In this document: positions 33,424-36,613 of the stretch, one piece after another
Layout: each line of letters opens with the position of its first letter
How positions within the stretch are numbered: the first letter of the stretch is position 1
From: Pseudoxanthomonas kaohsiungensis
Lineage (GTDB): Bacteria; Pseudomonadota; Gammaproteobacteria; Xanthomonadales; Xanthomonadaceae
NCBI RefSeq assembly: GCF_010211765.1
Contig: NZ_PDWO01000004.1
Coordinates: forward strand, 62,001-126,000
Reading direction: 5' to 3'
DNA: 64,000 nt
Translations under genes and position numbers: made by a program
Notes under the pieces: generated by a model
Databases searched by the model: none
The model's input: only the letters and a program-made list of their open reading frames with translations
What the model was told of the DNA's origin: nothing

Positions 33424-33948
33424 CTACTCGCGCAACCGTGGCCGCAGGGTGGCCAGGTTGCATGGCTTGGTCCGCGCATCGAGCTGGTGGCGGATGATCT
33501 TTTCCCACGCGGTGCGGCAGGCCGAAGTCGAGCCGGGCAGCGCGAACAGGAAGGTCGCGTTTGCCAGGCCGGCGAATGCGCGCGACTGCAGCGACGACGT
33601 GCCGATCTCCTCGACGCTCACCGCGCGGAACAGTTCGCCGAAGCCCGGCATTTCCTTGTCCAGCAGGGGCAGCAGCGCTTCGGGCGTGGAGTCGCGCCCG
33701 GTGAAGCCGGTGCCGCCGGTGACGAGGATGCCGTCCACCTCGGGATCGGCGATCCACTGCGCGACGATCGCGCGCAGGCGGTAGCGGTCGTCGGGCATCA
33801 GCGCGCGCATCGGCACCCGGTGGCCGGCTGCTTCAAGCGACTGGACGAGGTAGTCGCCCGAGGTGTCGTTGGCCGCGGTGCGCGTGTCGGACACGGTCAG
33901 CACGCACACCTGCAGGGGGATGAAGTCGCGTTCGGCGGTCATGGACAT
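33424..33948 (-). CDS. moaB: molybdenum cofactor biosynthesis protein B
   Basis: 174 aa, a MogA/MoaB fold that binds molybdopterin and, in the MoaB form, is thought to adenylylate it. Motifs: LTVSDTRTAANDTSGDYL, MPDDRYRLRAIV, VTGGTGFTGRDSTPEAL and the C-terminal LPGSTSACRTAWEKII. Two starts are close, 33948 and 33942. No other moa or moe genes are in the window. Upstream lies the large repeat island. Confidence 0.94.
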   Translation of the reverse strand: MSMTAERDFIPLQVCVLTVSDTRTAANDTSGDYLVQSLEAAGHRVPMRALMPDDRYRLRAIVAQWIADPEVDGILVTGGTGFTGRDSTPEALLPLLDKEMPGFGELFRAVSVEEIGTSSLQSRAFAGLANATFLFALPGSTSACRTAWEKIIRHQLDARTKPCNLATLRPRLRE

Positions 33949-34640: not shown

Positions 34641-34797
34641 TCCGGTCATGCCCGTCCCTACAGGAGAGCATCCGTCGTCGCTGGTGCGTGGCCCGCCGAC
34701 GAAGGAAAGGGTGGAGACACCGTGGCATTGGCTCCTTCTGGCGATACCGTCGCGTCGAGCGAAGCCACGCCCACAACGTCGCCCGAGGACGTCGTGT

Positions 34798-34886
34798 CCT
34801 GGGGGCAGGGCGCAAGTGGCACAGGGATGTGCCACGACCCGAGTCCGGACAGGACGTCCGGTCGAGGGATGCGCCCTGCCCCCAGG
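34798..34886. repeat. fourth nested palindrome, same topology, different sequence
   Basis: Perfect 17-bp arms (CCTGGGGGCAGGGCGCA at 34798-34814, complement at 34870-34886) enclose two hairpins: GTGGCAC with GTGCCAC (34816-34835) and CCGGAC with GTCCGG (34845-34861). The arrangement, an outer stem around two internal hairpins, is that of the 206-bp units, though the bases are unrelated. Confidence 0.85.
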
Positions 34887-34977
34887 GCACGGCGGCCCGG
34901 TCCGGAGCTGGCACTACGGTCGCGAGTACCGCCTTGTAGGGCGCTCCCCCGTCACCGAACTCCTAGGCATCCCCCCG

Positions 34978-35362
34978 GGGCTTTTTGCCGTGCGCCCGGG
35001 GGTGCCCGGCCATGCGGCCTGGGCTTTTTGCTCCGATACCGGGGCTCCCGGGCCCCAACCGCAAGGCTTCTTGCCTTGCGCCCGGGGCTGCCGGGCTTCG
35101 CCATCGGGGCTTTTTGCTCCAACGCCGGGGCTCCCGGGCCCCGACTGCAAGGCTTTTTGCCTCGCGCCCGGAGCTGCCGGGCCCCGCGGCCAGGGCTTTT
35201 TGCTCCAGCGCCGGGGCTGCCGGGCCCCAATCGCAAGGCTTTTTGCCTTGCGCCCGGGGCTGCCGGGCTCCGCGATCGGGGCTTTTTGCTCCAACGCCGG
35301 GGCTCCCGGGCCCCAACCGCAAGGCCTTTTGCCTTGCGACTGGGCTCCTTGGCCCCGCCCGA
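34978..35362. repeat. nine-unit 43-bp array of two alternating unit types
   Basis: The marker GGCTTTTTGC recurs at about 34979, 35022, 35064, 35108, 35151, 35194, 35237, 35280 and 35323, giving a 43-bp period. Odd units continue CCTTGCGCCCGGGGCTGCC, even units TCCAACGCCGGGGCTCCC, in strict alternation (86-bp higher order). The even-odd junction forms CGCAAGGC-TTTTT-GCCTTGCG, an 8-bp stem with a T5 loop. There are no variable spacers, so it is not CRISPR. 43 is not a multiple of 3, which argues against a coding repeat. Confidence 0.88.
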
Positions 35363-35530: not shown

Positions 35531-36613
35531 TTACTCCGACGTCAGTCGCGCCAGCTCGTCGGCCTGGTGTTCCTGCTGCAGGCGGGTGACCAGCGGCCCG
35601 AGCTCGCCTTCCAGGATGTTGGGCAGGTCGTACAGGGTCAGGCCTTCGACCCGGTGGTCGGTGATCCGGCCCTGCGGGAAGTTGTAGGTGCGGATGCGCT
35701 GGCTGCGGTCGCCGCTGCCGACCTGCAGGCGGCGCGATTCGGCCTGCGCCGCCTGCTGGCGGCTGCGCTCGGCGTCGAGCAGCTGCGCCTTCAGCCGCTT
35801 CATCGCCTTGTCGCGGTTGGCGTGCTGGCTGCGCTCGGTCTGGCTCTCGACCACCACGCCGGTGGGCAGGTGGGTGATGCGGATCGCCGAGTCGGTCTTG
35901 TTGACGTGCTGGCCGCCGGCGCCGGAGGAGCGGAACGTATCCACCTTCAGGTCGGCCGGGTTGATCGCGATGTCCTCGATCTCGTCGGCTTCGGGGATGA
36001 TCGCCACCGTCGCGGCCGAGGTATGGATGCGACCCTGCGACTCGGTCGCCGGCACGCGCTGCACCCGGTGCGTGCCGGACTCGAACTTCAGCCGCGAGTA
36101 GGCGCCGCGGCCGACGATGCGCGCCACGATCTCCTTGTGCCCGCCGTGCTCGCCGGGATTGTCCGATTCGACCTCGACCTTCCAGCCCTGGCGCTCGGCG
36201 TAGCGGGCGTACATGCGGAACAGGTCGCCGGCGAAGATCGCCGCCTCGTCGCCGCCGGTGCCCGCGCGCACCTCCAGGAACAGGTTGCCGTCGTCGCGCG
36301 GATCCTTCGGCACCAGCAGCAGGGCCAGCTCGCGGTCGAGCGTGTCGAGCTGCGCGCGCGCCGCGGCGATTTCCTCGCCGGCCAGTTCGGCCAGTTCGGG
36401 GTCGTCGCGCATGGCCTCGGCGGCGGCCAGGTCGGCCTTGGCGCGGGCTTCGGCAGCCAGCGCGGTGGCGACCGGCTCCAGTTGGGCGAACTCGCGGGAA
36501 AGGTCGCGGAAGCGTGCGTTGTCGGCCAGCACGCCGGGATCGGCGAGCAGGCGTTCGAGTTCTTCGCGGCGCTCGGCCAGCGCTTCCAGCTTACGGCGCA
36601 GGCTCGGGGTCAT
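35531..36613 (-). CDS. prfA: peptide chain release factor 1
   Basis: 360 aa, as in E. coli. RF1 reads UAA and UAG stop codons and triggers peptide release. The stop-codon-recognising PAT motif is in [17 protein letters not shown], and the catalytic loop [18 protein letters not shown] holds the GGQ that PrmC (encoded at 10.4 kb) methylates. An N-terminal coiled-coil domain precedes them. The ATG at 36613 lies inside the end of hemA (23-base overlap), so the two are coupled. Confidence 0.98.

Follow-up and report, generated by a model that had tools for sequence, protein, structure and literature searches.

REP and REPIN sequences with their RAYT genes are, as outlined in PMC3116915 and PMC3733652, short intergenic palindromes that occur in clusters, have a linked gene and are also dispersed as copies without that gene. 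PMC3733652 places a GTAG or CGTC tag at the foot of the REP palindrome, and REPs are usually present in more than 100 copies per genome according to the abstract of PMC2817692. The array family described here resembles this layout in its short intergenic palindromes, its clusters, its linked gene and its dispersed gene-less copies. It differs in that its 21-bp dyads run head to tail, in that the consensus of the window's unit type carries no GTAG or CGTC tag, and in that genomes with any array confirmed by our scoring matrix have 1–5 of them, as opposed to the usual >100 REPs. The protein encoded by the linked gene, here called KSEAFCRQ, also sets the family apart: at E≤1, 23 KSEAFCRQ proteins together matched 13 families, and PF01797 (Y1, HUH transposase) is absent from that set. 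A RAYT was considered as the partner and rejected, PF01797 genes being present in 15 of 17 Pseudoxanthomonas genomes regardless of arrays. REP/RAYT is the nearest known layout, minus transposase, tag and copy number.

ParB–parS systems and plasmid iteron clusters place several phased sites beside the gene of the binding protein, with further sites elsewhere. The array family likewise combines sites elsewhere with phased ones next to a gene whose product is proposed to bind them, but KSEAFCRQ gave no ParB, ParA or Rep domain match, no partner gene was found and the array unit can differ between close homologues. CRISPR arrays have spacers of about 25–40 bp and nearly identical repeats. Regular palindromic repeats with short variable intervals are shared with the array family, whose centres, however, measure 5 bp and whose repeats diverge too; cas genes were found neither beside the window array, which is flanked by RF-1 and MoCF genes, nor among 30 flanking proteins of other arrays (E≤0.001). 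An intrinsic terminator consists of a GC-rich stem with a T run immediately after it. The array, too, has dyads rich in G and C together with T runs, but the T run is the loop of the window's main hairpins, and the dyads form tandem arrays that are not tied to gene 3' ends. No paper on the array or on the KSEAFCRQ protein was found among the matches listed in the open-licence literature.

Organization of the window array

The window, by which we mean the whole 64,000-nucleotide stretch of DNA analysed, carries the array in a 1,582-bp gap between an RF-1 gene and a MoCF_biosynth gene. The features of this region are listed below. The minus strand is displayed because it shows the A5 plus GTTGGRGC polarity known from some related arrays.

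33424..33948, minus strand: gene with a MoCF_biosynth domain match, which we take to be moaB-like
34787..34897: long inverted repeat with 28-nt arms 55 nt apart, separate from the window array
34978..35362, minus strand: whole solo array, in which an 86-bp higher-order repeat, itself made up of four dyad units of ~21.5 bp, recurs 4.2 times
35253..35338, minus strand: 86-bp copy, CGCAAGGCAAAAGGCCTTGCG / GTTGGGGC-CCGGG-AGCCCCGGC / GTTGGAGC-AAAAA-GCCCCGAT / CGCGGAGC-CCGGC-AGCCCCGGG
35167..35252, minus strand: 86-bp copy with the sole exact CGCAAGGC-A5-GCCTTGCG dyad, at 35232-35252
35081..35166, minus strand: 86-bp copy, first unit with one change per arm (CGCGAGGC / GCCTTGCA), neither of which restores a Watson-Crick pair
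34995..35080, minus strand: 86-bp copy, first unit CGCAAGGC-AAGAA-GCCTTGCG
34978..34994, minus strand: truncated fifth copy, CGCACGGC-AAAAA-GCCC
35531..36613, minus strand: gene with PCRF and RF-1 domains, presumably prfA (peptide chain release factor 1), with the array 168 bp beyond its stop

TRF reported the array as a tandem repeat of period 86 with 4.2 copies (85% matches, score 531) and, in a further reading, of period 43 with 7.2 copies (68% matches). Lag identity within the array was 0.81 at 86 and 0.63 at 43, whereas none of 1,000 base shuffles exceeded 0.39, and the five top-scoring 385-bp segments in a lag-86 scan of the entire 64 kb all overlap the array. The 86-bp period comprises four units of 21–22 bp, on the minus strand CGCAAGGC-AAAAA-GCCTTGCG, GTTGGGGC-CCGGG-AGCCCCGGC, GTTGGAGC-AAAAA-GCCCCGAT and CGCGGAGC-CCGGC-AGCCCCGGG. 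Four units per 86 bp correspond to a base unit of about 21.5 bp, or two helical turns.

The original prediction described a tandem array at 34978-35362 of two alternating 43-bp types. This description was borne out, with nine units alternating as claimed, and the array is indeed out of codon register, as 43 is not divisible by 3. The accompanying formula, a T5 junction between CGCAAGGC and GCCTTGCG at every even-odd boundary, applied in part: the exact CGCAAGGC-TTTTT-GCCTTGCG was present in one of four junctions, and the other three deviate as CGCAAGGC-TTCTT-GCCTTGCG, TGCAAGGC-TTTTT-GCCTCGCG and CGCAAGGC-CTTTT-GCCTTGCG. Likewise, the stated lack of variable spacers is true of the window array but does not extend to related arrays, in which the 5-bp centre is highly variable. 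The window array is real, yet neither unique nor best described as a series of T5-loop hairpins.

No array was found after prfA in 15 other Pseudoxanthomonas with readable sequence (0.4–1.5 kb each; G016 was cut off). In 8 of those 15, by-eye reading placed the MoCF gene closely behind prfA. In three of these species (locus L059 of G011, L060 of G003 and L061 of G012) the stretch following prfA seems by eye rich in other repeat elements, and it may therefore be a landing place for repeats. The inverted repeat at 34787-34897 is probably a member of a separate palindromic element family; the stretch around it is 78% similar over 190 bp to sequence flanking the array on C20 of the same genome. 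Between 34046 and 34644 the window also contains three 206-bp tandem repeats (96% matches), parts of which resemble an element next to the same C20 array (~71–73% over ~150 bp).

Dispersed relatives of the window array

The window array is one of a family and is not singular. Three more places in the window's own genome (G000) match it, and matches at E≤1e-3 were obtained in 8 of 59 other relatives searched. In related arrays the 21-bp dyad CGCAAGSC-N5-GSCTTGCG, whose 5-bp centre varies, is mostly repeated head to tail, and the family occurs as intergenic arrays in some Xanthomonadaceae, Accumulibacter and Aquabacterium. Among 306 spacings between 331 scored units of relatives, using a segmentation unable to report a spacing of 20, the values were 21 (196), 22 (5) and 23 (22), with longer spacings of 41 (20), 42 (32) and 43 (14), plus a few other values. 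Seventy-three of the 306 are not multiples of 3.

A two-unit pattern searched against contigs of 84,980 species (a figure from the database description) matched at six places, which belong to P. daejeonensis, Aquabacterium commune and two MAGs, one of Pseudoxanthomonas and one of Accumulibacter. Sequence model R1 detected arrays in 10 of 198 family genomes, representing 6 of 54 genera, and in 5 of 398 genomes of a phylum sample, two of these being G000 and G002 and two being weak. The scoring matrix confirmed an array in 30 of 33 loci, the exceptions being two loci of G174 and one of G027. Scored arrays contain 4–30 scored units and measure 254–464 bp in 27 of 30 cases. In all 30, overlap with genes called by a codon-usage script was at most 40 bp; the gene context of these arrays is tandem in 14, convergent in 4, divergent in 3 and undetermined in 9.

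The N5 centre of relatives is richer in A and T than most arm positions, and N5 spectra were more alike within than between genomes (25 arrays; 0 of 5,000 shuffles as high). Arrays also display local homogenisation into 42–86 bp repeats. A 169-bp array stretch is 88% identical between C11 of G000 and C32 of G002, with flanks that do not match, and in G127 two arrays together with their flanks share 83% identity over 618 bp. The C5 and C11 arrays of G000 lie near contig ends. A phage or plasmid origin was rejected: the two-unit pattern was absent from the viral contigs searched, one array used as a blastn query had no match in plasmids, and the KSEAFCRQ gene was not detected in the phages, plasmids or viral contigs searched.

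The KSEAFCRQ gene and its arrays

The linked gene was found without being assumed, by comparison of array-masked flanks of unrelated loci. One block common to these flanks proved to be a gene of 156–162 aa in five loci (~155 aa in the family), and its product was provisionally named KSEAFCRQ after the most conserved motif. One sequence, L134, was left out after the first protein alignment as unrelated (21% identity). KSEAFCRQ proteins had no match in NCBIfam or PHROGs at E≤0.01 and none reaching the cut-off in Pfam; three PADLOC families each gave a weak match to one of 23 proteins, and the best E value of a profile search against PDB was 0.19. AlphaFold, given a two-sequence input, returned helices only, at low confidence (pLDDT 49), and the protein is probably all-helical. 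Ratios of dN/dS between 0.05 and 0.51 in 10 gene pairs showed that the gene is under purifying selection. A search for a second partner gene yielded no ORF group of at least 90 aa in more than 3 of 26 loci, frames overlapping the KSEAFCRQ gene aside. A second conserved block was observed near arrays L137, L138, L139, L141, L143, L148, L150, L151 and L152 (genomes G206, G229, G127 and G100), and in the four loci tested (L143, L148, L150 and L151) it encodes an XAC0095-family protein (NF047335).

Of 31 gene loci, 24 had exactly 21 as the best flank period in the range 13–30, versus 21 of 170 random positions (located >1.8 kb from the gene in 20 loci) and 2 of 16 prfA loci used as a second control. 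Omission of the five discovery loci left 20 of 26 with this period, and further omission of L040, chosen earlier for its array, left 19 of 25. From genomes in which R1 detected no array of the window's unit type, 22 gene loci were available, 16 of which read 21 clearly. A second, later gene set gave a period of 21 in 15 of 19 loci, or 14 of 18 without the repeated L040 locus. Gene loci without a 21-bp array include L175, L183, L186, L212 and L226. Gene loci of both gamma- and betaproteobacteria have a 21-bp architecture, built from different unit sequences.

Units often differ between gene loci, for example CCTCAAACGCGAGGCTCGGAG in L170 and CGtkccGAGcTngkwGCTCGG in L185, and those of three G002 paralogues (L158, L203 and L204) differ from one another. 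The L187 and L203 proteins are 87% identical, yet the resemblance of their units does not exceed the average (0.37); recognition may therefore be loose or of architecture. Overall, loci with more similar genes tend to have more similar units (Mantel r 0.36, p 0.0002; 20 of 36 loci, L180 dropped by hand). The side of the gene on which the array lies, assigned as upstream or downstream in the period test, tracks the gene tree, with 4 changes versus a shuffled mean of 13 (43 rows). Array regions were less alike than genes in four of four pairs. Of 19 loci whose best array is downstream, 13 have a terminator-like hairpin 37–76 nt past the stop of the gene, a count made without a shuffled control. 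Beside a G006 paralogue (L205:2960-3250) we observed an array of 42-bp period with long near-perfect dyads such as CCGTTGGACAAA-TTTTGTCCAACGG.

Across the family, the gene is carried by 65 of 198 genomes and by 10 of 10 R1-positive ones (raw counts, uncorrected for relatedness), one of the latter, G174, not being confirmed by the scoring matrix. Within Pseudoxanthomonas, 7 of 17 genomes have the gene (G000, G001, G002, G006, G013, G014 and G015). All five with array matches at E≤1e-6 (G000, G001, G002, G006 and G013) are among them, although that of G013 did not hold up in the scoring matrix. Nine of the 10 gene-less Pseudoxanthomonas had no array match, and G016 had one weak match of 57 bp. 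G014 and G015 possess the gene and have no match to the window array; the G015 gene adjoins a GCAAG-type array. In the 398-genome phylum sample the gene was present in G000 and G002 only. Accumulibacter ACC003 has six gene matches, of which one lies ~30 bp from an array; four were obtained in Aquabacterium commune. Exceptions to co-occurrence are G055, with a short array and no gene, and G035 and G056, with weak single short matches and no gene. In six genomes (G000, G002, G006, G206, G229 and G127), 19 of 24 scored arrays lack the gene in the stretch examined around them.

The window's genome has two KSEAFCRQ copies, C11:53006-53467 and C15:281-730. The C11 copy has a GTCGGA-type array downstream. 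The product of the C15 gene shares 79% identity with the protein that P. daejeonensis encodes beside a CGCAAGGC array, an identity that makes the C15 gene the likely cognate of the window array. The C15 contig (L165:1-280) opens 280 bp upstream of the gene with what appears by eye to be adapter sequence. Because the contig ends there, the array side of the C15 gene is missing from the assembly. The window array is a solo copy, with its likely cognate gene on another contig.

Proposed mechanism and alternatives

Our main reading, to which we give a probability of roughly 0.6, is that the window array is a solo member of a 21-bp dyad-array family, the gene-linked members of which adjoin the KSEAFCRQ gene, and that the array would be a DNA platform for the KSEAFCRQ protein. 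The protein would recognise short half-sites, here GSCTTGCG and its complement, recurring in alternating orientation every two helical turns. Many protein copies could then load on one DNA face and build a nucleoprotein array. A gene-linked array would serve the gene's own locus, and solo arrays, including that of the window, would be copies dispersed among intergenic regions and kept alike in any one genome, like REPs around RAYT genes. Of the roles put forward by the original prediction, a serial protein-binding platform fits best in view of the two-turn period, the conserved half-sites and the one travelling gene; we infer multivalent binding of KSEAFCRQ to the array and a role for this protein in array spread or maintenance. 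A gene-less array copy together with gene-linked relatives suggests an undescribed bacterial gene-and-repeat system. More tentatively, and with doubt slightly outweighing conviction, this system may constitute a new gene-repeat class in which a small helical protein without a recognisable enzyme domain is accompanied in most copies by its own fast-rewritten 21-bp array, seeds solo arrays and moves between distant proteobacteria, operating by cooperative loading on helically phased half-sites and not by transposition.

The window array folds better than 100 shuffles, with z scores of -6.4 on the minus and -4.35 on the plus strand, as would be expected of tandem dyads. It falls under the matrix threshold, and covariation tests therefore rest on relatives. 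In 44 three-unit segments of relatives, the stem around the N5 loop showed no compensatory change overall, with 436 of 500 shuffles pairing as well; two further N5 tests point the same way, pairing at some positions being slightly below expectation. A slight excess of pairing was seen at the innermost N5 pair (p 0.013 and 0.03 in two tests). In alignment A1 the junction dyad, which spans neighbouring units, showed weak covariation (equalled by 5 of 500 shuffles), and two further tests behaved likewise; a hairpin could account for this signal too. Tested per array, nine arrays of the GCAAG type gave no covariation (Stouffer z -1.23); for 10 arrays of other types the score was +2.95 at the better-paired dyad and -2.78 at the other. 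The junction signal was not relied on, being weak in A1, absent per array in the GCAAG type and mixed in others. A selected hairpin was rejected as an explanation, as arms of relatives do not covary across N5 save at the innermost pair, and the earlier hairpin reading, with its suggestion of a decoy RNA, finds no support in the same result.

Transcription of the arrays into hairpin RNA, whether decoy or structured non-coding, is an improbable function: the strong predicted folding of both strands and the weak covariation at the junction dyad and innermost N5 pair are countered by the lack of overall covariation across the N5 loop, by the mixed gene contexts, by terminator-like hairpins 37–76 nt past the gene stop in 13 of 19 downstream-array loci and by Rfam matches that all score below gathering. 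Those same terminator-like hairpins, which provide many gene-linked loci with an ordinary terminator-like structure already, also speak against the idea that arrays act as transcription terminators or as barriers between genes. Stem-like units with T5 tracts and the avoidance of called genes (0 of 30 overlapping by >40 bp) would suit such a role; we nonetheless consider it improbable, given that T5 in the window array is a loop and does not follow the stem, and that contexts are mixed. That open frames cross the array on both strands might indicate a repeat-protein gene, a possibility reduced almost to nothing by periods of 43 and 86 that shift the frame, by the 73 of 306 spacings in relatives that are not multiples of 3 and by palindromic units, which are unexpected in a coding repeat.

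A more serious, if still unlikely, explanation is that the arrays are satellite-like junk or selfish DNA generated by slippage and template switching and tolerated in gaps, with the gene linked through a shared element. The patchy distribution of arrays and gene, the 15 readable Pseudoxanthomonas without an array after prfA, the lower similarity of array regions than of genes in all four pairs and the local homogenisation into 42–86 bp repeats are as this explanation would have it. Less easily accommodated are the recurrence of a 21-bp architecture, built of different units, at gene loci of gamma- and betaproteobacteria, the length of 254–464 bp in 27 of the 30 scored arrays and purifying selection on the gene.

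By this work, an orphan-looking DNA repeat is joined to a conserved, unnamed protein family, and a testable pairing of a protein with its cognate array is offered. If KSEAFCRQ binds the array, the pair would represent a non-transposase counterpart of REP/RAYT, and a fast-changing repeat beside a conserved protein would furnish a model for array-protein co-evolution. If it does not, the tight linkage of gene and array itself calls for explanation.
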